The notes under the pieces are model-generated. The model worked only from the letters and a program-made list of their open reading frames with translations, ran no database searches and was not told where the DNA came from. A stretch of 64,000 nt of DNA from Candidatus Fimenecus excrementigallinarum (GTDB lineage Bacteria > Bacillota > Clostridia > Oscillospirales > Acutalibacteraceae): NCBI GenBank assembly GCA_018714805.1, contig DVMW01000036.1, positions 1 to 64,000 of the forward strand, given 5' to 3'. This document shows, piece after piece, positions 2,775 to 19,072 of the stretch (position 1 is its first letter; every line of letters starts with the position of its first letter). The position numbers were made by a program, and so were the translations under genes.

Positions 2775-4091
2775 ATGGAGCCGCAAGTTGTATTCGGTCC
2801 CGGCGAGGGGAGTCCTGCGCCGTATTACCGCATTCCCTCAATGGTCACGACGAAAACCGGCGTGGTCGTTGCGTGCGCGGACGCGCGCGTCTGCTCGGGA
2901 ATGGACAACCCCAACCGCATTGACAAGGTTGTGCGCCGCAGCCTCGACGGCGGCCGGACCTGGGGAAAGTATATTGTTGCCGTGCGCGAACACGGCGACC
3001 GGAAAATGCACGCCTCGGCGGCAATCGACCCGTGCCTTGCGTACGTGCCGAAGACCGGGCGCATTTTGATGCTGTATTCGCACACGCCCGCCGGCGTCGG
3101 CATCCGCAACAGCCGTGTGTGCGTCGGCGAAACGCCGGAGGGCGAACGGTGCGTCAAAGGCCGCGCGCGCCGTTATTTGTGGCGGAACGACCGCCTTGTT
3201 ACGAAAAACGGCGGCGAAACGCCCTATACCGTCACGCCGGGCGGCGACGTCCGCAAAAACGGCAAGCTTTGCGGCAATCTGTTCACCGGCGGCGCGTTCC
3301 GCGAGGAGCGCACGTCCTATTTGATGCTGTGTTACAGCGACGACGACGGGGAGACCTGGTCCACGCCCGTTTCGCTGAACCGGCAGGTGAAGCTGCCGTA
3401 TATGAGCTTTATCGGTCCCGGCCCCGGGCGCGGCATTGTGCTCGAGCACGGCGCGTTCGCCGGGCGCATTGTGTTCCCCATTTATTTCGGAACGCGCAAA
3501 TTTCCGCTTCGCCTTTCCTGCACGGTCATTTACAGCGACGACGGCGGCGAGACCTGGACCCTGGGCGAAAGCCCCAATAACACGCGCGAAATGCGCGGGA
3601 AGCGCCTGAATTGCCGGAAAATCGGGCAAAAGGATATGCTCACGGAGTCGCAGCTGATAGAGCAGGCCGACGGGACGCTCAAGCTGTTTATGCGCAACCA
3701 CGACCCGCGGCGCAGCACCGCCGTGGCGTACAGCAGGGACGGCGGCGCGCATTTTGCGGATTTCACCTGGGACGACAGCCTGCCGCAGCCGGTGTGCCAG
3801 ATGTCCGTTCTAAAACTTGCGGGCACCGAAAAGCCGACCGTCGTTTTCTTAAATCCCGCCGAGCGCAAGGCGCGCGAAAACGGTACGGTCCGCCTGTCGG
3901 AGGATGACGGCGAAACCTTCCCGTACAGCCGCCTTTTGAAGCCGGGCGGATTCGTGTACAGCTGCCTGACCGAGCTTCCCGACGGGAAAATAGGCGCGCT
4001 GTACGAGCCGGATACGAAATGCCGGGAGATTCATTTTGTATCCTTTTCGGTCGACTGGCTTAAACAGGGCGAGGACCCTGCTGAAATATAA
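2775..4091 (+). CDS. Exo-alpha-sialidase (GH33-type six-bladed propeller), cytoplasmic
   Basis: 438 residues. The N-terminal YRIP motif (residues 18-21, with the arginine that binds the sialic acid carboxylate) and ADAR (35-38, carrying the catalytic Asp) match bacterial sialidases. Asp boxes occur near residues 56-63 (SLDGGRTW), ~188 (SDDDGETW), ~254 (SDDGGETW), ~320 (SRDGGAHF) and ~375 (SEDDGETF). The late motif FVYSCLTELPDG probably carries the catalytic tyrosine. There is no signal peptide or membrane anchor, so the enzyme is predicted to act inside the cell, presumably on oligosaccharides brought in by the carrier encoded just downstream. The start ATG is preceded by GAAAGGAG. Family confidence is high; the substrate linkage is unknown. 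Confidence 0.88.
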   Translation: MEPQVVFGPGEGSPAPYYRIPSMVTTKTGVVVACADARVCSGMDNPNRIDKVVRRSLDGGRTWGKYIVAVREHGDRKMHASAAIDPCLAYVPKTGRILMLYSHTPAGVGIRNSRVCVGETPEGERCVKGRARRYLWRNDRLVTKNGGETPYTVTPGGDVRKNGKLCGNLFTGGAFREERTSYLMLCYSDDDGETWSTPVSLNRQVKLPYMSFIGPGPGRGIVLEHGAFAGRIVFPIYFGTRKFPLRLSCTVIYSDDGGETWTLGESPNNTREMRGKRLNCRKIGQKDMLTESQLIEQADGTLKLFMRNHDPRRSTAVAYSRDGGAHFADFTWDDSLPQPVCQMSVLKLAGTEKPTVVFLNPAERKARENGTVRLSEDDGETFPYSRLLKPGGFVYSCLTELPDGKIGALYEPDTKCREIHFVSFSVDWLKQGEDPAEI

Positions 4092-4130
4092 AGCACAGAA
4101 CCTTTAAAAAAGAGAAGAGGGCGAAAACAC

Positions 4131-6605
4131 TTGGAAAAGACCACCCAAAAGCGGTCGCTCGCCGCCACGGTTTCAAACCTGGCGCGCATGGTCCGCGCAC
4201 ACTGGAACGAACCGCCTGCGGGGCGGTATATGCCGTATAAGGAGATTGTCTCCTATTCGGCGGGCGGCATCGGCGTCAAGTTCCTCGCCGTTATGGCGAT
4301 GAACACGATTTTGTCGGCGTCCAACACGCTTATCGGCAACACGATAGGCATCAAGCCGCTGCACGTGTACATCCTGTATTTCATTTCGGTGCTTGTGAAC
4401 ATCCCGCTGTCGGGCATCCGCGCCAACATCATCGACAACACCCGCAGCAAGGAGGGCAAATACCGCCCGTATATTGTGAAGATGGGCATCCCCAGCGCCA
4501 TCGTCACCATTTTGTTCGTCTGGTTCCCGTATAACCGGTTCGGCGCGCTGTTCGGCGAGGGGACGATTTTCGGCGAGGAGAAGGCCTACGTCGTCACCTG
4601 CGCGCTTGTTTTGCTGTTCAATTTCTTCCAGAATTTCTTCTACTATTTCTTTACGGAAGCGTACGACAACCTGATTCACGTCCTTTCGCCCAATACGCAG
4701 GAGCGTGCGGACGTTTCGACCATCAAGGGCGTCGTCTATTCGCTTGCGCCCTCCATTTTGAATCTGGCCATGCCCATTTTCGCGGGGCTTCTGACCAACG
4801 ACAACCTGTATGATATCCGGCTGTTCCGCTACATATATCCGCCGGTTGCCATCGCTTCGGTCGTTTTGAGCATTGTGGTGTACGCCAACACCAAGGAAAA
4901 GATTGTCCAGGCGCGCACCCACGTCATCCAGATTCGCTTCATGGACTCCCTGCGCGAGGTTCTGCGCAACAAATATTTCTGGGTCATTGCCATGGCGACG
5001 TGGCTCGGGTTCTTGGAAACCTCCATGACCAACGTTCTGACCTGGCTTTATACCTACGGCGGCATCTGCGGCAGCTCGGCGTATACCATTATCACGCTGT
5101 TCTGCCAGAACGCCGGGCTTGTAGGTATGCTGCTTGCGCCCGTCTTTATCCGCCTGTGGGGCAAGCGGGTGGTCCTCATCGGCACCAATGTGATGAATAT
5201 CGTCTTTATCGGGCTTATGTTCCCGGTCGTGCGCATCATCGACATGAGCGGCGCGGACACAAGCGCGCTGACAACCTGGGTGCCGCTGCTGCTTTTGGTG
5301 GTCTGCTACTGGATGAACAACCTGATGAACGCGTTCATGCAGATTCTGACGCCCTCCATTAATGCCGACATCCGCGATTACCAGCAGTATGTCAGCGGCG
5401 AGCGCATTGACGGTATGTTCTCGACCATTACCGCCGTCGGCGGCCTTGTGACGGTTGCGAGCAGCGGCATTGTCAACTTCCTGTACGACCGCTTCGGCAT
5501 CAACGAGACGACCGCCGCCCAGGTGCTCAACGACCCGTCGGTTATGAACAAGGTCCTGCGCAACGGCAACCTGGTCAGCGATGTGATTGCCGATACGGAC
5601 ACGTCGAGTATCGCGTATTTCTCGCTGTATGACGGCGATATCCTGCAAACCGTCTGCGGCGTGCTGATTGTCGCCTCCATGGTGGGCGCGTTCATCAACG
5701 TCCTGCCGTATTTCTTCTATGATTTGACGGAAATCAAGCAGCAGGGCATGGTCCGCGTTTTAAAGATTCGCGCGTTTTTTGAGGATTTCGGCAACGGCAA
5801 TTTGACCGACGACGACCTGTGCGAGGTCGTCGAGATGGTGGACCGCGCCAAGAGTCTCTCGCAGGAAACACCCGTGAAGGTCACGAAAGACGCGCTGAAG
5901 GCGGCGAAAAAGACCAAGAACCTCGCCGCGGTTGCCGCCGCCAAAAAAGAAAGAAAAGAACAGCTGGCGCGCAACCAGGAAATCCGGCTCGCGCCCTTTG
6001 TGCTCAACGAGCTTAACCGCTTTGAAAGCGAGGCGGGCGCACGGGAACTGGCCGACGCTAAGGCAATCTATGCGGCGGGTCTTGCGGGGCTTCGCGACGC
6101 AAGCCTCAAGGAGCTGCGCGCCGACCTTCGCGAGGCCAAGGCGCTGCCGAAACGGAACGACGCGCAAAAGGAGCTGCGCAACTACCGCGTGCATTTCTGC
6201 CGCACGCGTTTGACGGCGCGCAAGTACATTGATAAGTATTACCCGAACGGGATGGCGGTGGAAACGCCGGACGAAGCGCCGCTGAACGCGCTGCTTGTCA
6301 CCGAAGAGGCCTATGACAAGGAAGAGGAGCAGCTGTACAAGCGCCTGTTTGAAGCGGGCGACCGCAAGGACAAGGCCGCGCAAAAGGAGCTCAAAGCGCA
6401 GCTGAAGGCGCTGAAGAATAAATTTAAGGCGCTTAATAAGCAGATTCGCACCGAGCAGGACAAGCGCGTCAATTATACGCGTTCCGCAAAGCCGTATCTC
6501 GACGCCTCCCGCGTGCTGACGCAGGCGGAAAACTACACGCACTTCGGCGAGCTGGAAGCGCGTTACCGTGCGCTCAAGGAAAAGGAAGCCGCAGCACAGG
6601 TGTAA
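4131..6605 (+). CDS. GPH-family (MFS) sugar symporter with a ~300-residue charged C-terminal extension
   Basis: 824 residues, starting at TTG with GAGGG nine bases upstream; the next in-frame Met is residue 20. Residues ~35-525 form a 12-helix carrier of the glycoside-pentoside-hexuronide type, with the loop motif RSKEGKYRPY. Known relatives take up oligosaccharides with sodium or protons. Residues ~530-824 are soluble, rich in Lys, Glu, Ala and Arg with heptad-like stretches, and have no motif I recognise. Typical GPH carriers are 450-510 residues, so the tail is unusual. The sialidase gene ends 39 bases upstream, so the two are probably one operon for sialylated oligosaccharides (inference). 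Confidence 0.8.
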   Translation: MEKTTQKRSLAATVSNLARMVRAHWNEPPAGRYMPYKEIVSYSAGGIGVKFLAVMAMNTILSASNTLIGNTIGIKPLHVYILYFISVLVNIPLSGIRANIIDNTRSKEGKYRPYIVKMGIPSAIVTILFVWFPYNRFGALFGEGTIFGEEKAYVVTCALVLLFNFFQNFFYYFFTEAYDNLIHVLSPNTQERADVSTIKGVVYSLAPSILNLAMPIFAGLLTNDNLYDIRLFRYIYPPVAIASVVLSIVVYANTKEKIVQARTHVIQIRFMDSLREVLRNKYFWVIAMATWLGFLETSMTNVLTWLYTYGGICGSSAYTIITLFCQNAGLVGMLLAPVFIRLWGKRVVLIGTNVMNIVFIGLMFPVVRIIDMSGADTSALTTWVPLLLLVVCYWMNNLMNAFMQILTPSINADIRDYQQYVSGERIDGMFSTITAVGGLVTVASSGIVNFLYDRFGINETTAAQVLNDPSVMNKVLRNGNLVSDVIADTDTSSIAYFSLYDGDILQTVCGVLIVASMVGAFINVLPYFFYDLTEIKQQGMVRVLKIRAFFEDFGNGNLTDDDLCEVVEMVDRAKSLSQETPVKVTKDALKAAKKTKNLAAVAAAKKERKEQLARNQEIRLAPFVLNELNRFESEAGARELADAKAIYAAGLAGLRDASLKELRADLREAKALPKRNDAQKELRNYRVHFCRTRLTARKYIDKYYPNGMAVETPDEAPLNALLVTEEAYDKEEEQLYKRLFEAGDRKDKAAQKELKAQLKALKNKFKALNKQIRTEQDKRVNYTRSAKPYLDASRVLTQAENYTHFGELEARYRALKEKEAAAQV

Positions 6606-6617
6606 AGCTTTTTCAAA

Positions 6618-6656
6618 AAAACGGACCGTCCGGCGGAGGGCGGTCCGTTTTCTTTT
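6618..6656 (+). terminator. Rho-independent terminator of the sialidase-transporter operon
   Basis: AAAACGGACCG / CGGTCCGTTTT stem (6618-6628 with 6641-6651) followed by TCTTTT. Confidence 0.85.
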
Positions 6657-6677
6657 GCCGCTGACAGATTTTCGCAC

Positions 6678-6706
6678 TTGATTTTTTTTCGTCTTTTTCG
6701 TATGAT
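6678..6706 (+). promoter_or_regulatory. Sigma-A promoter for nadA-mnmA
   Basis: TTGATT (6678-6683), 17-base spacer, TATGAT (6701-6706). Confidence 0.65.
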
Positions 6707-6738
6707 GATAGGGAACTTTCAGAAAAAGGGGCGTCAGC

Positions 6739-7653
6739 ATGATTCGGGACATCCAGGAGGAAATTCTCCGGTTAAAAAAGGAAAACGACGTGTGCATTTT
6801 GGCGCACAGCTATACGGCGCATGAAATTTTGGAGGTCGCCGATTTTTCCGGCGACAGCTATGCGCTGTCCGTCCGCGCAAAGTCCGCGCCGCAAAGGACC
6901 GTTTTAATGGTCGGCGTCCGCTTCATGGCGGAAACGGTCAAGATTTTGTCGCCCGAAAAGCGCGTGCTGCTGTCTCATGCGCAGGCGGGCTGTCCGATGG
7001 CCGAGCAGATGACGCCCGACCTTATCGAAAAGACCCGCGCGCAGCACCCCGGCTGCGCGGTCGTCGCCTATATCAACACGACGGCGGCGCTCAAGACCGT
7101 CTGCGACGTCTGCGTGACCTCGTCGTCCGCCGTGGACATTGTCCGCAAGCTGCCGCAGGAGGAAATTCTGTTTATCCCGGACTGCAACCTCGGCGCGTTC
7201 GTGCAAAGCAAAATTCCCGAAAAGCGCTTCCACTTTTTGCAGGGCGGCTGCCCGATTCATACGCTGGTGCGGGAAGACGAGGTGCTCGAGGCCAAGCGCC
7301 GGCACCCGGACGCGCTGCTGCTCGTCCACCCCGAATGCCTGCCGGAGGTCACGCGCCATGCCGATTACGTCGGCTCAACGGCGGGGATTATGCAGTTTGC
7401 GAAAAAAAGCGATTGCAAGGAATTTCTCATCGGAACGGAAATGAGCATCGCCGAGCATCTTTCCTACGACTGCCCGGACAAGCGCTTTTACCCGCTGTCG
7501 AAAAAGCTGCTTTGCCCGGATATGAAGCTGTCCACGCTGACGGACGTTTACAATGCGGTTGCGGGCCGGGGCGGCGAGGAGATTTTCCTCGACGCCGAGA
7601 CAATTTCCAAGGCGCGCGGCTGCATTGACGCGATGATTGCGCTGGGCGGCTGA
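6739..7653 (+). CDS. nadA: Quinolinate synthase A
   Basis: 304 residues, the usual length. The enzyme condenses iminoaspartate with dihydroxyacetone phosphate to quinolinate in NAD synthesis, using a [4Fe-4S] cluster. The three cluster cysteines are visible in AGCPMAEQM, VHPECLPEV and KLLCPDMK, and the substrate motifs ILAHSY, DFSGDSYALS and VGSTAGI are present. The start ATG has AAAAAGGGG upstream. nadB and nadC, usual partners, are not in the window. The mnmA start lies one base past its stop, so the two are almost certainly one transcript. Confidence 0.93.
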   Translation: MIRDIQEEILRLKKENDVCILAHSYTAHEILEVADFSGDSYALSVRAKSAPQRTVLMVGVRFMAETVKILSPEKRVLLSHAQAGCPMAEQMTPDLIEKTRAQHPGCAVVAYINTTAALKTVCDVCVTSSSAVDIVRKLPQEEILFIPDCNLGAFVQSKIPEKRFHFLQGGCPIHTLVREDEVLEAKRRHPDALLLVHPECLPEVTRHADYVGSTAGIMQFAKKSDCKEFLIGTEMSIAEHLSYDCPDKRFYPLSKKLLCPDMKLSTLTDVYNAVAGRGGEEIFLDAETISKARGCIDAMIALGG

Positions 7654-7654
7654 C

Positions 7655-8686
7655 ATGGAGAAGCAGAAGCTTGCCGTCGCCATGAGCGGCGGGGTGGATT
7701 CCTCTGCGGCGGCCGTTTTGGCAAAAGGGGCGGGCGACGCCTTCGGCGCGACGATGCGCCTTTGCGACGAGGCTTTTGCGGAGGCCGGCGCCGCCGCCGA
7801 AATTTGCGCGTCCCTGGGTATGCCCCATACCGTCTGGGATTTTCGCGACACCTTTCGCCGCGAGGTCATGGAGCGCTTTGCGGCCGCGTATGCGGCCGGT
7901 CAAACGCCGAACCCCTGCGTCGTCTGCAACCGCTTTATCAAATTCGGCGCCTTTTTGGAGCGCGCGCTGCAATCGGGCGCGGCGCGGATTGTGACGGGGC
8001 ATTACGCGCGCACCGTGCGGCAGGGCGGCCGCGTGCTGCTGCAAAAGGCGGCCGACAAAAGCAAGGACCAGAGCTATGTGCTGTATACACTGTCGAAAGA
8101 AGCGCTCGAGCGCGTCTGGTTCCCGCTCGGGGAGCTGACCAAGCCGCAGGTCCGCGAGCTTGCGCACGAACAGGGGCTTGCAAGCGCGAACCGCAAGGAG
8201 AGCCAGGATATCTGCTTCGTCCCCGACGGCGATTACGCCGCGTTTATCGAGCGCTTTTCGGGCAAAACCTTCCCCCCGGGGGACTTTACGGACCTTTCCG
8301 GCCGTGTGCTCGGGCAGCACAAAGGGATTATCCGGTACACCGTCGGCCAGCGCCGCGGGCTCGGGCTCGCGCTGCCCGCGCCGATGTATGTCGTGAAAAA
8401 GGATGTTTCGGAAAACTGCGTGCGCCTCGGCTTTTCGCAGGATTTGCTCTGCGATACGGTGGAGGTGGGCGAGCTCAATCTGACCGCCTGCGACGCATTC
8501 CCTTCGCCGGTCCGCCTTGCGGTGCGGATTCGGTACAACCAGGCGGAACAGCCCGCCACGGTCGAGCAAACCGGGGCAGACAGGCTTCGCATCCGCTTCG
8601 ACACGCCGCAGCGGGCGGTCACGCCCGGGCAGGCGGCGGTGCTGTATGACGGCGACACGGTCGTCGGCGGCGGCACAATTTTGTGA
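7655..8686 (+). CDS. mnmA: tRNA-specific 2-thiouridylase MnmA
   Basis: 343 residues. MnmA makes the 2-thio group of uridine 34 in tRNA Glu, Gln and Lys. Motifs seen: the PP-loop SGGVDSS at residues 11-17, TPNPCVVCN with the first catalytic cysteine, GHYAR, KDQSYVLYTL, ESQDICFVPDG with the second catalytic cysteine, and YTVGQRRGLG. The start is placed at the ATG one base after the nadA stop because the PP-loop is then at the normal distance from the N-terminus. No sulfur-donor desulfurase gene is adjacent. Confidence 0.93.
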   Translation: MEKQKLAVAMSGGVDSSAAAVLAKGAGDAFGATMRLCDEAFAEAGAAAEICASLGMPHTVWDFRDTFRREVMERFAAAYAAGQTPNPCVVCNRFIKFGAFLERALQSGAARIVTGHYARTVRQGGRVLLQKAADKSKDQSYVLYTLSKEALERVWFPLGELTKPQVRELAHEQGLASANRKESQDICFVPDGDYAAFIERFSGKTFPPGDFTDLSGRVLGQHKGIIRYTVGQRRGLGLALPAPMYVVKKDVSENCVRLGFSQDLLCDTVEVGELNLTACDAFPSPVRLAVRIRYNQAEQPATVEQTGADRLRIRFDTPQRAVTPGQAAVLYDGDTVVGGGTIL

Positions 8687-8716
8687 ATCACCGTTCACGT
8701 CCGATTTTTTACATGC

Positions 8717-8767
8717 AAACCGGTTGGCTGCTGGGTTTCCCCGGCATCGGCCAGCCGGTTTTTTTAC
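8717..8767 (+). terminator. Rho-independent terminator after mnmA
   Basis: Long stem AACCGGTTGGCTG pairing with CGGCCAGCCGGTT (two G-U pairs), followed by a run of T. Confidence 0.8.
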
Positions 8768-8890
8768 GCCGATTTCGCCGGATTCACCCACGTAGTTTAG
8801 TCATATTCAACAAAAACAACAGGCGTGAATTGGTCAAATCATATAATACGGGGAACTTGCCGAACACCGCCGAAAAGTCCCGTTATTTTG

Positions 8891-8919
8891 TTGACAAAGC
8901 GGAATTTGGATTGTATACT
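8891..8919 (+). promoter_or_regulatory. Near-consensus sigma-A promoter
   Basis: TTGACA (8891-8896), 17-base spacer, TATACT (8914-8919). It drives the YczE-like gene. Confidence 0.85.
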
Positions 8920-8976
8920 ATTGCCAAATTCAAAGACTTGCAGTTATGCAACAAGCACAAGAGGAAAGGCAATACC

Positions 8977-9720
8977 ATGGCAGAGATTCTCAGACAAATG
9001 CAACCGAAAACCATTTTACACAGCACGCACGGCAAACGCCGAATCGGCATGATGCTGTGCAGCATCCTGCTTATGGGCTTTGGCATTTCCGTTTTTTCGT
9101 TTTCCGGGATGGGCGTGGACCCGTTTACGGCCCTGAATATGTCCGTCAGCGCGAAACTCGGGCTGAGCTTCGGCTTCTGGCAGATGCTTGTCAACGCCGT
9201 GCTGCTGCTTTTTGTGGCGCGCTTTTCCAAAAAGCTTATCAATCTCGGCACCGTCATCAATATGGTCGGCGTCGGGTATGTCTGCGACTTTTTCACCGCG
9301 ATTTACGACCGCTTCCTGCCCGCGCCCACGGCGCTTCCCGTGCGGCTTGTCCTCATGCTTTGCGGCGTGGTGCTTTTAAGCCTTTCGGCGTCGCTGTTTT
9401 TTACGGCGTCGCTCGGCGTCGGCCCGTATGACGCGGTCGGCTTTGTCCTGCGCGACAAAAGCCCCATTCCCTACAAATGGTGCCGGGTGCTCACCGACGT
9501 CGTCTGCACGGGCGTCGCGTTCCTGCTTGCGGGTCCCGTGGGCGTCGGTACGGTCGTCACGGCGTTCTGCATGGGCCCCATCGTTGCCTTTTTCAACACG
9601 CACGTGTCCGAAAAGCTGCTGAACGCATCCGAAAACGCCTTCCGCCCGACCGTGCATTTTTACGATTTCACCCGCTTCGGCGGCGCGTTCATTTCCGTAA
9701 ACGGCCGCTTCGCCTCGTAA
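8977..9720 (+). CDS. YczE/YitT-family integral membrane protein
   Basis: 247 residues with about five or six hydrophobic helices. The internal repeat-like motifs GMGVDPFTALN and SLGVGPYDAVGFVL are typical of the YczE/YyaS group, whose biochemical role is not established. The start ATG follows GAGGAAAGG at 8961 and lies 57 bases past a near-consensus promoter; longer upstream openings in this frame run through the promoter and are rejected. It is a single-gene transcription unit with its own terminator. Confidence 0.8.
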   Translation: MAEILRQMQPKTILHSTHGKRRIGMMLCSILLMGFGISVFSFSGMGVDPFTALNMSVSAKLGLSFGFWQMLVNAVLLLFVARFSKKLINLGTVINMVGVGYVCDFFTAIYDRFLPAPTALPVRLVLMLCGVVLLSLSASLFFTASLGVGPYDAVGFVLRDKSPIPYKWCRVLTDVVCTGVAFLLAGPVGVGTVVTAFCMGPIVAFFNTHVSEKLLNASENAFRPTVHFYDFTRFGGAFISVNGRFAS

Positions 9721-9775
9721 ATTTCAACCTTCGCTTTTTCCTTTTTTCCTCTCTTTCCTTTCTATTTTTTGACGG

Positions 9776-9809
9776 AAAAACACCGGTGCAAAGGAGCGCC
9801 GGTGTTTTT
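9776..9809 (+). terminator. Rho-independent terminator
   Basis: AAAAACACCGG / CCGGTGTTTTT inverted repeat closing on a short loop and ending in T5. Confidence 0.8.
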
Positions 9810-9852
9810 CTGCGTTTGCGCGCCGTTTTCGTGCCGGCGTCGCTCGGAAATC

Positions 9853-9882
9853 TTGACAAAACGACTTTGGATTTGGTATGAT
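9853..9882 (+). promoter_or_regulatory. Sigma-A promoter for the PASTA kinase-like gene
   Basis: TTGACA (9853-9858), 18-base spacer, TATGAT (9877-9882). Confidence 0.75.
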
Positions 9883-9900
9883 TATATAGGTTATCTATAC

Positions 9901-9916
9901 GAAACGGTACCGTTTC
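9901..9916. promoter_or_regulatory. 16-bp perfect palindrome in the 5' leader
   Basis: GAAACGGTACCGTTTC begins 18 bases after the -10 hexamer and ends 20 bases before the start codon. Symmetry and position fit a repressor operator; the regulator is unknown. Confidence 0.45.
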
Positions 9917-9936
9917 CATTTGGGAGGTCAACGCTT

Positions 9937-11604
9937 ATGCTCGATACGCTGTGCATGGGCTGTATGCGGGAGATTGGCGACGCGAAGCAATGCCCGTATT
10001 GCGGCTTTTCGGCCGACACGCCGCAGTTTGCGCCCTATCTGCCGCTGCGCGCGCTGGTGGGCAGCCGGTATGTCGTCGGGAAAATGCTTTCGTCCGGCGG
10101 CGACGGCGCAACCTACATTGGCTGGGACCGCGAACGCAAATCGACGGTCATCATTCGGGAATTTCTGCCGGAGCAGCACGTTGTGCGCACGTCGGAGGAC
10201 CCGACCTTGCGCATTAAGGTCGGCAGCGAGCTTCTGTTCCATGACGGCCTGGCCGACTTTTTGGAGCTGTGGCGCAAGCTTGCGCGGCTGCGCGGGATGA
10301 CGGCGATGATTCCCGTGCTCGATATTGTGGAGGACAACGGCACGGCGTATGCGATTTCGGAATATGTCGAGACCATTTCCCTTCGGGAGTTTCTGCTGAA
10401 GAGCCGCACGGGGTATTTGAGCTTTGAGCAGACGCGCACGCTGCTGATGCCGGTGGTTTCCACGGTGTCGAAGCTGCACGCGCTGGGCGTGTACCATTGC
10501 GGCATTTCGCCCAACACGCTGCGCCTCGGCCGCGACGGGAAAATCCGCCTGACCGATTTTATGATTCCGGCCGCGCGGGTGCTGGAAACCGGCTTTGAAA
10601 GCGAGCTGTTTTCCGGGTACGCCGCCATTGAGCAGTACAGCCGCGAAGGGTCCGTCGGCGCGTGGACCGATGTGTACGCGTTCGGCGCGGTCACGTATCG
10701 GATGCTTATCGGCAGCATCCCGCAGGAGGCGACGGAGCGCGTCGCCAACGACAAGCTGATGATTCCGCCGAAATTTGCCGAAACGCTGCCGGCGTATGCC
10801 GTCAGCGCCATCCAAAACGCGATGGCCATTGCGCCCGACGACCGCACGGCGTCCGTGGACGATTACCGGGAGGAGCTTTCCGGCTCGCCGAAGGTTATGG
10901 TTGCGCGCAAGGAGCAGGTCAAAGAGGCCGTGGAGGCGGTGACGACCGACGCCGAGGAGGCGGAGCGCCGCCGCAAGGAGGAGCTGCGCCGGGAAATGCT
11001 GCGCAAGCAGGAGCAGACCCGCACACTGCTCATTTCCTTCGGCGTGTGCCTTGCGATTGGCCTTGTCGCGCTGGGCATTTATCTGTTTGTGACCCGCACG
11101 CCCGCTTCGGAAAAGCCGGCCGACACAACGGCGGCCTCATCGGAGCTTGTGGAGGTGCCCAATTTTGTCGGGCAGAGCTATTCGCGCATCCAGGCGGATA
11201 CCGTCTTAAACGAGCGCTTCAAATTCGTGGTGGAATATGATTACAGCGATACGGTCGAAAGCGATTTGATTATTTCCCAGAAAACGGCGGAGGGCCAGCA
11301 GGTGCCGAAGGGCTCGGAGCTGACCATTGTCGTCAGCCGCGGCGTGGAGTACGTCACGCTGCCGGATGTTTCCGGGATGCAGTATGACGCGGCGGTCCAG
11401 CTTCTTGTCAGCCGCGGCTTTAAGTGCACCCGCGTCGAACGGGAAAACGACGGCTCGCACACCGCCGGGATTGTAATTGCGACGACGCCGGAGGCCGGTA
11501 AGGACTACGAGCACGGCCGCGAGATTTACATCCAGGTCTGGGGCGAGGTCCCCACCACGCAAAACGACTCGCTGCTCGGCGGGCTTGTCGGCAATCTGTT
11601 CTGA
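9937..11604 (+). CDS. Membrane-anchored PASTA-domain Ser/Thr kinase-like protein, probable pseudokinase
   Basis: 555 residues. In order: a zinc ribbon with cysteines 6, 9, 19 and 22; a kinase-like domain (~40-310); a charged linker; one membrane helix (~363-385); and two PASTA domains (~403-467 and ~469-535), which in the family bind muropeptides outside the cell. Key catalytic positions are altered: the ATP-binding lysine position is Arg74 (VIIREFLPE, normally VAIKEFLPE), the catalytic loop reads HCGISPN (187-193), so the usual catalytic Asp is Gly189, and DFG reads DFM (207-209). GYAAIEQY and DVYAFG are kept, so the fold is probably intact. It may be a wall-sensing scaffold rather than an active kinase (inference). 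Confidence 0.85.
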   Translation: MLDTLCMGCMREIGDAKQCPYCGFSADTPQFAPYLPLRALVGSRYVVGKMLSSGGDGATYIGWDRERKSTVIIREFLPEQHVVRTSEDPTLRIKVGSELLFHDGLADFLELWRKLARLRGMTAMIPVLDIVEDNGTAYAISEYVETISLREFLLKSRTGYLSFEQTRTLLMPVVSTVSKLHALGVYHCGISPNTLRLGRDGKIRLTDFMIPAARVLETGFESELFSGYAAIEQYSREGSVGAWTDVYAFGAVTYRMLIGSIPQEATERVANDKLMIPPKFAETLPAYAVSAIQNAMAIAPDDRTASVDDYREELSGSPKVMVARKEQVKEAVEAVTTDAEEAERRRKEELRREMLRKQEQTRTLLISFGVCLAIGLVALGIYLFVTRTPASEKPADTTAASSELVEVPNFVGQSYSRIQADTVLNERFKFVVEYDYSDTVESDLIISQKTAEGQQVPKGSELTIVVSRGVEYVTLPDVSGMQYDAAVQLLVSRGFKCTRVERENDGSHTAGIVIATTPEAGKDYEHGREIYIQVWGEVPTTQNDSLLGGLVGNLF

Positions 11605-11605
11605 A

Positions 11606-11652
11606 CCGGTCGCGCACGGCGGGGCTTTTCCCGCTGTGCGCGGTTTTCTTTT
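11606..11652 (+). terminator. Rho-independent terminator after the PASTA gene
   Basis: Stem CGCGCACGGCGGG with CCCGCTGTGCGCG, followed by TTTTCTTTT. Confidence 0.85.
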
Positions 11653-11672
11653 CTGCAAAAAGGGGGACGGCC

Positions 11673-13049
11673 ATGCTGCGGTTTTACCAGATTACGGATA
11701 CCCATTTTTATGCGTCCGAGGTTCTGCGCCCGGAAGGGGAGGCCTGGGAACGGCGCGCCAAATACGACCAGAAATGCGTGGCGGAGAGCGGCGCGATTTT
11801 GGACGCGGCTACCGAGCTGCTGCTCGCCGACACCGAAACGGAGATTGTCCTTGTGACCGGCGACCTGGTCTGCGACGGCGAGCGCGAAGGGCATTACGCC
11901 ATGCGCGAGAAGCTGCGCCGCCTGCAGGCGGGCGGCAAGCGCGTTTTCGTCCTCACGGCGACGCACGACACCTGCCCGTACCCGAAAAAATACGCCGCCG
12001 AAAAAGGGGAGTACCGAGCCGAGGGGCTGCCCAAATCGGAATTGCTTCAGGTGTACTGGGAATTCGGCCCCGCGACGGCGCTTTCCGTCCACGAAAAAAG
12101 CTTTTCCTACGTCTCGCAGCTCGCGCCGGGCTACCGGCTGTTCGCCCTCAATGACGACGGGATTGGCTGGGAGCGCGGGTTCCACGGCTATGACGAGGAC
12201 CAGCGCCGCTGGCTTGCAGAGCAGCTGGAAATCGGTCGGAAAAGCGGCGACGTGCTGCTGGCGATGGGGCACCATCCGCTGCTGCCGCCAAGCCCCGTAT
12301 ATGCGTTTACAAGCCCCGACGACCTTATCGGCAACCATGAGCAGGTCGCTTCCGAGCTTGCCGACGCGGGCGTGCACTTCATGTTCACCGGCCACACGCA
12401 TATGCAGAGCATTGAATATTTTGACTCTGAGAAGGGCAACCGCATATTTGACATCAATACCGGCAGCCTTATCTGCTACCCGAGCCCCATCCGGCACATG
12501 ACGCTTACGGAGCAGACGCTGTCCGTGCGCACCGTGCATCTCGACCGGATTGACTGGGACCTCGGCGGCAAATCCTATATGCAGTACAGCCTTGACCACT
12601 TTGAATTCATGCTGCGCGACATTTTGGACGCCGCGGCAAACGACATCCGCCGGTTTTGCAAGATTGCCCCGGATTTCGGCCTGCAGACCGAGACCGCCTG
12701 GAAGCTGCGCGTGCCCATTCACCTGGCGGGGAAAATGATGGAGCGGCTGACCTTTCAAAAGGCGGGGCGTCTGCTTTTCTGCGCGACGAAAATTGCGCCC
12801 GAAATGCGCGGCGTGTACTTAAAGGACTTCATGCTCGCGCTTATCCGCAACCTCTACGGCGGCGACGAGCCCTACGCCCCCGGCACGCCGGAGTATGCGT
12901 CCTTTATGGCGCTGTACCGCCGGGTGCGCCCGGTTCTGCGGCGCTTCAAGGGGCTTTCGGGGCTCGACGAGGTGATAGAAGGCGCGCTGTACGACGACGG
13001 GTATCCGGACAGCGACGCGGACTTGCCCGTGCCGCCGACCATTGTATAA
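11673..13049 (+). CDS. Calcineurin-like metallophosphoesterase
   Basis: 458 residues, cytoplasmic by sequence. Metal-binding motifs are visible: ITDTHF (motif I, DxH), VTGDLVCDGE (motif II, GD), MGHHP and FTGHTHMQ (GHxH). Motif III, normally GNHD, reads ATHD here, so the metal-bridging Asn is replaced by Thr, which may alter or weaken catalysis. The ~200 residues after the GHTH motif have no feature I recognise. GGGGG lies eight bases before the ATG. The gene sits 19 bases before a GPH transporter gene with its own ribosome site, so they are probably cotranscribed. The substrate is unknown. Confidence 0.8.
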   Translation: MLRFYQITDTHFYASEVLRPEGEAWERRAKYDQKCVAESGAILDAATELLLADTETEIVLVTGDLVCDGEREGHYAMREKLRRLQAGGKRVFVLTATHDTCPYPKKYAAEKGEYRAEGLPKSELLQVYWEFGPATALSVHEKSFSYVSQLAPGYRLFALNDDGIGWERGFHGYDEDQRRWLAEQLEIGRKSGDVLLAMGHHPLLPPSPVYAFTSPDDLIGNHEQVASELADAGVHFMFTGHTHMQSIEYFDSEKGNRIFDINTGSLICYPSPIRHMTLTEQTLSVRTVHLDRIDWDLGGKSYMQYSLDHFEFMLRDILDAAANDIRRFCKIAPDFGLQTETAWKLRVPIHLAGKMMERLTFQKAGRLLFCATKIAPEMRGVYLKDFMLALIRNLYGGDEPYAPGTPEYASFMALYRRVRPVLRRFKGLSGLDEVIEGALYDDGYPDSDADLPVPPTIV

Positions 13050-13068
13050 ACGAAAAGGGAGGAAACCA

Positions 13069-14544
13069 ATGAAAACCTATTCGCCGAAAAAAGAGTGGTT
13101 CGCCTACTGTGTCGGTGCGTTCGGGCAGGGCATGGTCTACGCCATGATGAGTTCGTACATTTCGGACTTCTACATGAATGTCATGAAGCTCACGCCGCTG
13201 TTCGTCCTGTTCCTGATGCTGTTCGCGCGCATCTGGGACTCCTTTAACGACCCCATCATGGGCTATATTATGGACCGCGTGAACCCGAAGGGCGGGAAAA
13301 TGCGGCCGTACCTTTTGTATGCGCCCATTCCCGTGGCGATTCTCACCGTCCTCTTGTTCCAGTCGCCGAACATCTCCCCAACGGGGCTCATGGTTTACGC
13401 GGCTGTGACCTACGTGCTGTGGGATATGGCGTATACGGTTTGCGACGTGCCGTTCTGGGGGCTTCCGAACGCCCTGACCCCGAACCCGGACGAGCGCGGC
13501 GTCATCATCAGCCGCGGCCGGACGGCGAACGGCGTCGGCTCGGCCGTGCCGATTGCGCTGTTTATGGTTATGGGCCCGCTGCTTGCACGCTTAAGCCTGA
13601 GCGGTACGGAGCTCGAAAAGGCAAAGTATACCTCCATCGTCATATTCTGCTCGGTTATCGGCAACCTGCTGTTTGCGCGCGTCTACTTTAAAACCAAGGA
13701 GCGCGTCTCCATCCCGAATCCGCCCAAGCGTAAAAAGGGCGAGCAGACCGCCTTGGGCCGCCTGTTCCGCTGCAAGCCGCTGATGCTCACCGCGCTCATG
13801 GGCGTGCTTTCCGCCGCGCGGTATATGTACCAGGCCGGCGCGGTCCACGTCGCGCGCTACAGCATCTATATCGGCGGCGATTTAACCGGGCTCTCCTTAG
13901 CGGAGAAGGAGGCGGCGCTGCAAAGCAACATCAGCCTCGTCTCGACCATTTTCCAGGTCGCAAGCGCCGCGGGTATGTTCGGCACGATGCTTGTGATGCC
14001 GCTGCTCTTCAAGCGCTGGAACTACAAACAGATTATCATGGGCACCTGCGTGCTCGGCGCGGTTTCCAGCCTTGCCATCTGGTTCATCGGCTATGACAAT
14101 TTCCTGTGGTGCGTGCCGTTTTTCGTCATTTCCTGTATTCCGCTCGGCGCCATCAACATCTGCACCTACGCGATGCTCGGCGATTGCCTCGACTATATGG
14201 AGTGGAAAACCGGCGTGCGCGCGACGGGGCTTGGCGCGGCGGTGCAGGGCTTCATTGCGAAATTCGGCAACGCCATCAGCACCAGCTTTATCATCGTCAT
14301 GTACATGATTGTCCATCTGGACGTTGCGAGCATCAACGCCTCCGTCACGGCAAACCCGCTCGAAATGAGCGAGACCGTGCGCACGGGTATGTTCTCGCTT
14401 ATCTCCATCATCCCGGCCATTTCCCTGATTTTGTGCATTATCCCGCTGTTCTTCTATGACCTGGTCGGCGAAAAGAAAGAGCGCATTACAAAAGAGCTTG
14501 CCGAGCAGCGCGCCGCGCGCGGCATTGTGATTGAAGAGGGGTAA
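13069..14544 (+). CDS. GPH-family (MFS) sugar symporter
   Basis: 491 residues with 12 predicted membrane helices. The motif ARIWDSFNDPIMG in the first cytoplasmic loop and GGKMRPY nearby are typical of the glycoside-pentoside-hexuronide:cation symporter family. The ATG at 13069 follows GGGAGG; an earlier in-frame ATG overlaps the preceding gene and has no ribosome site. Unlike the carrier at 4131 it has the normal length with only a short charged tail. It probably forms an operon with the metallophosphoesterase, but that gives no clue to the substrate. Confidence 0.85.
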   Translation: MKTYSPKKEWFAYCVGAFGQGMVYAMMSSYISDFYMNVMKLTPLFVLFLMLFARIWDSFNDPIMGYIMDRVNPKGGKMRPYLLYAPIPVAILTVLLFQSPNISPTGLMVYAAVTYVLWDMAYTVCDVPFWGLPNALTPNPDERGVIISRGRTANGVGSAVPIALFMVMGPLLARLSLSGTELEKAKYTSIVIFCSVIGNLLFARVYFKTKERVSIPNPPKRKKGEQTALGRLFRCKPLMLTALMGVLSAARYMYQAGAVHVARYSIYIGGDLTGLSLAEKEAALQSNISLVSTIFQVASAAGMFGTMLVMPLLFKRWNYKQIIMGTCVLGAVSSLAIWFIGYDNFLWCVPFFVISCIPLGAINICTYAMLGDCLDYMEWKTGVRATGLGAAVQGFIAKFGNAISTSFIIVMYMIVHLDVASINASVTANPLEMSETVRTGMFSLISIIPAISLILCIIPLFFYDLVGEKKERITKELAEQRAARGIVIEEG

Positions 14545-19042: not shown

Positions 19043-19072
19043 AAAAAAGCAGCCCTGCCGCGGCAGGGCTGC
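19043..19072 (-). terminator. Terminator of the membrane-anchored protein gene
   Basis: GCAGCCCTGCC / GGCAGGGCTGC hairpin, followed on the minus strand by TTTTTTG. Confidence 0.85.

Follow-up and report, generated by a model that had tools for sequence, protein, structure and literature searches.

A family of predicted PASTA pseudokinases nested within the zinc-ribbon receptor kinases of Clostridia

Results

The locus and the encoded protein

The window, by which we mean the whole 64,000-nucleotide stretch of DNA analyzed here, carries on its forward strand a gene for a PASTA pseudokinase at positions 9937 to 11604, which the open reading frame list and the translation give as 555 amino acids plus stop. 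The frame, its start, its length, and its motifs agree with the preliminary description, including IIREF with Arg74, HCGISPN with Gly189, and DFM at residues 207 to 209. On the same strand follow, from the N terminus, a zinc ribbon read from the sequence (Cys6, Cys9, Cys19, and Cys22; codons 6 to 23, positions 9952 to 10005), a pseudokinase domain of about 280 residues delimited by alignment and structure model (approximately residues 38 to 317, positions 10048 to 10887), a long juxtamembrane helix that runs into a transmembrane segment (residues 318 to 382, positions 10888 to 11082; present in the model and as a hydrophobic run in the translation), and two PASTA domains recognized by Pfam and the model (approximately residues 403 to 535, positions 11143 to 11541). 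Pfam assigns two PASTA stretches (82.3 bits) and a Pkinase match (45.9 bits against a cutoff of 31.7), and the PASTA domains lie beyond the modeled transmembrane helix. The architecture first proposed, that of a pseudokinase anchored in the membrane and carrying a zinc ribbon and PASTA domains, is thus borne out by Pfam, the alignment, and the transmembrane helix of the model.

When the protein is aligned with PrkC and active zinc-ribbon kinases, Arg74 falls in the column of the VAIK Lys, Leu111 in that of the alphaC Glu, Gly189 in that of the HRD Asp, Thr194 in that of the catalytic-loop Asn, and Met209 in that of the DFG Gly, and Asp56 occupies the glycine-loop tip; the alignment reveals neither a displaced Lys nor a displaced Asp. 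The DFG Asp is the only one of the six catalytic residues retained, and His187, Glu232 (APE), Asp245, and Arg303 are kept as well. Pseudokinases are generally recognized by the loss of at least one of the Lys, the HRD Asp, and the DFG Asp, and here both the Lys and the HRD Asp are gone; from these residues, we predict no kinase activity.

An AlphaFold2 model built with 36 aligned orthologues has a mean pLDDT of 83.2 (mostly above 90 in the kinase domain), a pTM of 0.58, and a low-confidence linker ahead of the PASTA domains. Its best fold matches in the PDB are PpkA (5x1r and 5hnv; TM score by target length, 0.78) and then PknB. A sequence-profile search also ranks PpkA (5hnv) highest, over the kinase part; the PASTA structures 3py9 and 3m9g come next, over the rest.

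Upstream of the gene, a forward-strand promoter of the form TTGACA-18-TATGAT (positions 9853 to 9882) matches the consensus at 11 of 12 positions, with 0.6 such sites expected in shuffles of the region, and TTGACA...TATNAT-like elements were also found by eye 5' of the orthologues L005 to L012 and L025. A ribosome binding site, GGGAGG (positions 9922 to 9927, forward strand, by eye), recurs in the leaders of L005 to L007, L012, and L025. Downstream, a terminator-like stem-loop of 17 pairs with a T-rich tail spans positions 11608 to 11645 on the same strand, although such sites are not enriched in the region (2 found against 2.9 expected in shuffles). Because the gene has its own promoter and this terminator-like stem, it looks monocistronic in the window's genome. 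Its upstream neighbors are a NadA gene, an MnmA-type gene (Pfam tRNA_Me_trans), and a weak DUF6198/YitT-like membrane protein whose assignment lies below the Pfam cutoffs; downstream lie a calcineurin-like phosphoesterase and an MFS_2 transporter. The window's assembly comprises 1.87 Mb and is 97% complete, and the nearest relative found, L005, comes from an uncultured Eubacteriales assembly and is 92% identical.

The leader also contains a perfect 16-bp palindrome, GAAACGGTACCGTTTC (positions 9901 to 9916, without strand), that had been described as operator-like. The palindrome is indeed there, but a role as operator is unsupported, and we dropped it: the 64-kb window holds three perfect 16-bp palindromes against 1.3 expected from base composition, its 5-bp arms are kept only in L005 when the leaders of relatives are compared by eye, and the leader folds as RNA no better than its shuffles (z of 0.89). 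No second copy with up to two mismatches was found elsewhere in the genome, and the palindrome is probably incidental. The other two of the window lie at positions 19053 and 57849.

Loss of catalytic residues across the family

The family was sampled through 104 pseudokinases, namely, 49 from GTDB species genomes, 54 from the window's taxonomic family, and the window protein itself. The 56 loci from GTDB species genomes comprised, besides those 49, seven active kinases (L050 to L055 and L058) of a lineage that we call, in a description coined here, zinc-ribbon receptor Ser/Thr kinases; all seven carry all six catalytic residues. Two loci at contig starts, L131 and L132, were left out of all analyses. 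The orthologues share the losses that had been noted in the window protein: the HRD Asp is present in none of the 104 and is replaced by Gly (71), Ala (32), or Ser (1), and the VAIK Lys position holds Arg (70), Cys (26), His (3), Lys (2), Gln (2), or a gap (1). The alphaC Glu is likewise retained in none, the VAIK Ala is missing in 79 of 79 pseudokinases, the DFG Gly remains in 4 of 104, and the DFG Asp is gone in 85 and retained in 19, the window protein among these. Counted together, none of the six catalytic residues is kept in 40 proteins, one in 63, and two in 1.

Residues of structural importance are kept throughout (HRD His in 104/104, APE Glu and alphaI Arg each in 103/104), as is the CxxC...CxxC pattern in 102 proteins, including that of the window; the two without it, L068 and L107, are both short at the N terminus. 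A Pfam scan of 73 family proteins found PASTA in all 73 and Pkinase in 72. Among the 26 sequences filed as PrkC, 25 hold all six catalytic residues, the exception being a GDSL-FHA-kinase protein encoded on contig C5, for which the wrong segment had been extracted. A further 31 pseudokinases (20 weak-hit loci, 4 more, and 7 others, of which 3 lie within and 4 outside the window's taxonomic family) also lack the HRD Asp without exception, and one of them has the alphaC Glu.

The nucleotide site has changed in a consistent manner. All 21 active zinc-ribbon kinases examined have Phe at the tip of the glycine loop, whereas 101 of the 104 pseudokinases have Glu or Asp there (Ala, Gln, and one gap in the other three), as do 27 of the further 31; the pseudokinase family has therefore gained a conserved acidic residue at this position. 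The first Gly of the loop is changed in 102 of 104. An Arg is present at position 74 (beta3) or 59 (beta2) in 96 of the 101 acid-bearing proteins, and this combination can be read as an internal lock in the pocket; the five acid-bearing proteins that lack both arginines, two having Lys74 and one (L100) Cys74, count against this reading. Both arginines occur in L103, L106, L138, L141, and L159, and Arg59 is accompanied by His or Gln at position 74 in L096 and L099, as if Arg59 had been gained first and Arg74 lost afterwards. The 25 Ruminococcus-type loci with Cys74 and Arg59 are close relatives and hence provide no independent evidence. In the account of the pseudokinase VRK3, which cannot bind ATP, a glycine-loop acid sits at the place of the phosphate (PMC2639636). 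We infer from the substitutions that the pocket of the present family no longer takes ATP.

Phylogenetic origin and distribution

In a tree of 102 kinase-domain sequences, all 79 pseudokinases group together in a single clade (UFBoot, 99) that lies inside the zinc-ribbon kinases; the outgroup consisted of the two PrkC sequences that passed the filter, and deep nodes among the active kinases are weak. The first branch of the clade is L126_12266, which has no Pfam PASTA, and the other 78 pseudokinases group at a UFBoot of 96. The kinase domain thus does not group with PrkC but falls inside the zinc-ribbon receptor kinase lineage, and on this tree, with only two PrkC sequences in it, we reject descent from PrkC by loss. 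The loss of catalytic residues put forward in the preliminary description stands, but the protein is to be read as an inactivated zinc-ribbon receptor kinase rather than an inactivated PrkC. The PASTA pseudokinases L117, L119, and L120 (the last barely above the PASTA cutoff) belong to other families of the order, and the loss therefore predates the window's taxonomic family. The phosphotransfer residues were lost before the pseudokinase family radiated, probably in a single event.

The window's PASTA region aligns end to end with the first two PASTA domains of a PrkC (L135; E value of 4.5e-12), and that of an active zinc-ribbon kinase, L118b, scores as well as that of PrkC (54.3 versus 53.1 bits). 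The locus L118, from the same genome (G376) as the pseudokinase L117, encodes two tandem active zinc-ribbon kinases (positions 5963 to 9673 and 9738 to 13829) that carry six and three PASTA stretches. List_Bact repeats occur in one, and RCC1 and carboxypeptidase-regulatory domains in the other; these are large active PASTA receptors outside PrkC. At L126 (positions 3964 to 14155), four active zinc-ribbon kinases in tandem are followed by a fifth that lacks the HRD Asp (HGN) and PASTA, has a DUF285 match, and is the sister branch to the PASTA pseudokinases.

We estimate that the pseudokinase is present in about 179 of the 200 genomes sampled from the window's taxonomic family. The raw tally of 190 genomes with a match at 1e-20 is an overcount because weak matches can be PrkC. 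Of the 40 matching genomes beyond the 150 with listed matches, 33 were reexamined; 28 have a pseudokinase-like match (one, in G096, being an ambiguous contig-edge fragment), and five have PrkC-type matches only. The estimate sums the 150 listed matches (window included), the 28 reexamined, and the separately confirmed G066, leaves out G011, G144, G156, G165, G174, and G188, and rests on DNA read for about half of the genomes and on match strength and span for the remainder. Among 149 genomes of the phylum and 59 of the order (both samples include the window's genome, and the order sample two more genomes of its taxonomic family), no match starting in the zinc ribbon ran past query residue 393; three such partial matches outside the window's taxonomic family, L117, L119, and L120, are the PASTA pseudokinases recognized on inspection.

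Selection

Across seven pairs of close relatives, dN/dS for the whole protein is 0.046 to 0.140, with some dS values above 1 and hence saturated. The juxtamembrane part is looser in six of the seven pairs; in the remaining one, it differs little from the kinase part. In five pairs, constraint on the cytoplasmic part (zinc ribbon and kinase) equals or exceeds that on PASTA (e.g., 0.067 versus 0.082), and PASTA is tighter than the kinase part in the other two, the window with L005 (0.010 versus 0.098) and L010 with L011 (0.025 versus 0.041). Both the fold and the PASTA sensor are therefore kept under strong purifying selection.

PrkC and genomic context

The second canonical kinase for which a search had been proposed was found in the window's own genome, at the end of contig C48 in the order rlmN-stp-prkC; the contig encodes RlmN, a PP2C phosphatase, and the canonical kinase, whose PASTA part would lie beyond the contig end. 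The PrkC of the relative L133 is 96% identical to it over the part seen and has 713 amino acids and four PASTA stretches; that of L137 has three. All 17 genomes of relatives that were checked contain an active PrkC, as do 22 of 26 genomes of the window's taxonomic family; ten of these 26 were picked for lacking a pseudokinase match. It is present in all 19 of those that are at least 90% complete, and the four genomes without it are 69 to 74% complete. PrkC also occurs without the pseudokinase, e.g., in G056, G086, and G193 (all at least 96% complete), and any dependence therefore runs one way at most. Two other kinase-like proteins are encoded in the window's genome: one on contig C5 (L002, positions 214 to 2295) combines GDSL lipase/acylhydrolase, FHA, and kinase domains, and a small one on contig C33 (L003, positions 1381 to 2124) keeps HRDIKPSN, has DLS in place of DFG, and covers just the latter portion of the kinase profile.

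In Ruminococcus-type loci, the gene order is rlmN-stp-prkC-rsgA-thiN-pseudokinase (RlmN, PP2C, PASTA kinase, RsgA, and TPK were each Pfam checked in one representative). The third gene upstream is prkC in 24 of 25 loci, and the remaining one, L048, is cut by the contig start. The same cluster occurs in two genomes of one genus of the window's taxonomic family, G185 and G074 (the latter without thiN). Within the stretch scanned, up to about 8 kb on each side and shorter at contig ends, prkC was found near the pseudokinase in 0 of 54 and 0 of 20 other loci and at neither L160 nor L161 of the window's taxonomic family. The linkage is thus a feature of one genus-level clade and, as the sole positional hint, is weighed modestly.

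Gene contexts otherwise vary among loci, and no universal genomic partner and no type VII gene were found among the neighbors scanned. In 10 of 54 loci, a YebC gene is among the nearest three on the upstream side, adjoining in six (by crude ORF picks), metallophosphoesterases occur in some clades, and glgBCD (named by eye) occurs in another; we read these as chance or clade-level neighbors rather than partners. In L099, L100, L101, L103, L106, and L109, the downstream genes encode an HTH regulator (on the opposite strand) and a histidine-phosphatase-family protein, a pair that matches the Ruminococcus-type loci, yet prkC is unlinked in those six.

Discussion

In Gram-positive bacteria, PASTA kinases are among the chief known connections of growth control to the state of the wall. 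The window protein belongs, to judge from its sequence, to an ancient family of zinc-ribbon receptor kinases that have become catalytically dead. Because the catalytic residues are gone both in this protein and in its relatives in most genomes sampled from the window's taxonomic family, its signaling probably relies on contacts with partners and not on their phosphorylation. We regard it as an even call that the protein is a noncatalytic wall receptor in which PASTA binding is coupled to cytoplasmic contacts, perhaps tuning PrkC or Stp. Under such a mechanism, the PASTA domains would bind peptidoglycan pieces or lipid II outside the cell, and the cytoplasmic pseudokinase and zinc ribbon would then bind a partner, with the kinase fold serving as a fixed or ligand-switched docking surface. 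As partner, we would first consider PrkC (the active PASTA kinase), the phosphatase Stp that goes with it, or substrates of these two, and the pseudokinase may raise or lower PrkC output as a co-receptor or scaffold while itself phosphorylating nothing. If this is true, wall sensing in the window's taxonomic family would have a second, noncatalytic arm that is invisible to kinase-centered studies. The PASTA region of PrkC has been described as binding peptidoglycan fragments (PMC5786024).

The coexistence of PrkC and the clustering with prkC in the Ruminococcus-type loci, G185, and G074 argue modestly for PrkC as the partner; the link is weakened because its positional support comes from one genus-level clade and from none of the 54 and 20 other loci. 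HER3 is the co-receptor of HER2, and a more specific proposal along such lines would make the PASTA pseudokinase a standing co-receptor of PrkC, in which the glycine-loop acid, facing a basic residue on beta3 or beta2, replaces ATP and locks the signaling fold. We consider this rather unlikely. Were it correct, the family would constitute a widespread, ancient receptor class of Clostridia that passes on wall-fragment sensing without catalysis.

The main rival to a receptor that tunes PrkC is a wall-anchored scaffold unrelated to PrkC, which we hold to be possible but somewhat unlikely. The absence of prkC near the gene at all 54 and all 20 loci would fit such a protein, as would its own promoter and terminator-like site in the window and the conservation of the fold and the zinc ribbon, whereas the prkC linkage in one genus-level clade speaks against it, as does the alignment of the PASTA region with the first two domains of PrkC, though the L118b kinase scores alike. 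In detail, and with the same reserve, PASTA might position the protein, for example at the septum, so that pseudokinase and zinc ribbon recruit others, by analogy with EssB/YukC in type VII secretion. SelO (AMPylation) and SidJ (glutamylation) are kinase folds that use ATP in another way, and an unconventional enzyme of that kind might account for the 96 of 104 proteins, window included, that hold the acid at position 56 with Arg at 59 or 74, and for the DFG Asp of 19. We nevertheless find it very improbable, given the altered first Gly and acidic tip of the glycine loop, the missing VAIK Ala, the DFG Asp gone from most members, and the precedent of VRK3, whose pocket contains a glycine-loop acid and is described as unable to bind ATP (PMC2639636).

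The preliminary description had suggested a decoy or a scaffold; the latter stays among the readings, and the former has become less likely. In a pure decoy, only PASTA would matter, soaking up wall fragments and so keeping them from activating PrkC, and the retention of PASTA in all 73 proteins scanned and its tighter constraint in two of seven pairs would suit such a role. Overexpression of the PknB PASTA region without the kinase domain is also reported to disturb mycobacterial growth, ligand competition being one proposed reason (PMC4632501). However, a pure decoy is improbable: in five of seven pairs, selection on the cytoplasmic part is at least as tight as that on PASTA, and the kinase part carries distinctive traits, among them the glycine-loop acid, for which a decoy would have no use. 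We attach practically no weight to the notion of a gene decaying on its way to loss. The missing catalytic residues, the genomes of the window's taxonomic family without a match, one copy (L107, in G058) broken by an in-frame stop, and a segment of G003 flagged with one stop could be cited for it, but 148 of the 150 listed matches are free of internal stops, a stop flagged in G074 is the normal end of a 542-amino-acid frame, and a single ancient loss is common to the 79 pseudokinases in the tree. Recent decay is ruled out for the pseudokinase family by dN/dS, even though the G058 copy is interrupted; that stop is either an assembly error or the mark of a truly broken copy.

With respect to known systems, the Stk1/PrkC/PknB kinases (NCBIfam NF033483) share with the window protein a cytoplasmic kinase fold, one transmembrane segment, and extracellular PASTA domains, of which the window protein has two; it differs by its added zinc ribbon, lost catalytic residues, and branching with the zinc-ribbon kinases, and scores 166.4 bits against the equivalog cutoff of 450. 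The zinc-ribbon receptor kinases of Clostridia (VAIKEYLP...HRDISPDNIF) have in common with it the four-Cys zinc ribbon and the structural residues Tyr60, Glu75, Arg84, and Arg268, and the two active ones of L118 carry PASTA, but the seven kinases of this type examined keep six of six catalytic residues, compared with zero to two in the pseudokinase family.

MviN (ActPs3) of Mycobacterium tuberculosis reportedly acts downstream of PknB. Like the window protein, it is a membrane protein with a pseudokinase domain, is involved in wall synthesis, and is described as deficient in ATP and Mg binding; its motifs VALT and Y-- differ, and the printed review, through which alone we compare the two, mentions no PASTA in it (PMC12599244). 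CD2148 of Clostridioides difficile resembles the window protein in being a second membrane kinase-like protein beside PrkC. According to the report on it, CD2148 lacks the catalytic D and N, showed no autophosphorylation, may in its authors' view be a pseudokinase, and is said to modulate PrkC-dependent phosphorylation of CwlA; unlike the window protein, it is without PASTA, and the likeness drawn here is one of description (PMC9674922). The DYD pseudokinases, as reviewed, are also Firmicutes membrane proteins with the Lys replaced by Arg (here Arg74) and the alphaC Glu lost (here Leu111), but the window protein has DFM in place of their DYD motif and retains neither the catalytic-loop Asn (Thr194) nor HRD (PMC12599244). 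EssB/YukC is likewise a transmembrane pseudokinase of Firmicutes, with a noncatalytic scaffold role (PMC12599244). The Pfam YukC profile gives an E value of 0.25 and 10.6 bits on the window protein, below the cutoff of 27.4, and we assign it to neither group. The same 2025 review of bacterial pseudokinases covers ActPs1 to ActPs3, GLW, CP1, DYD, and DLHK, and the word PASTA appears in its text once, in the reference list (PMC12599244). Among the best-ranked matches in the open-access literature, we found no description of a PASTA pseudokinase family, and we accordingly propose this one, with its acidic glycine-loop tip, as a new variety of bacterial pseudokinase.

The single inferred loss, the derived substitution in the nucleotide site, and the active sister kinases together make the evolution of these pseudokinases testable. 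One further active zinc-ribbon kinase (L121, positions 2944 to 5133) is fused to a beta-lactamase-like domain (Pfam Beta-lactamase2) and is possibly a wall or beta-lactam sensing kinase.
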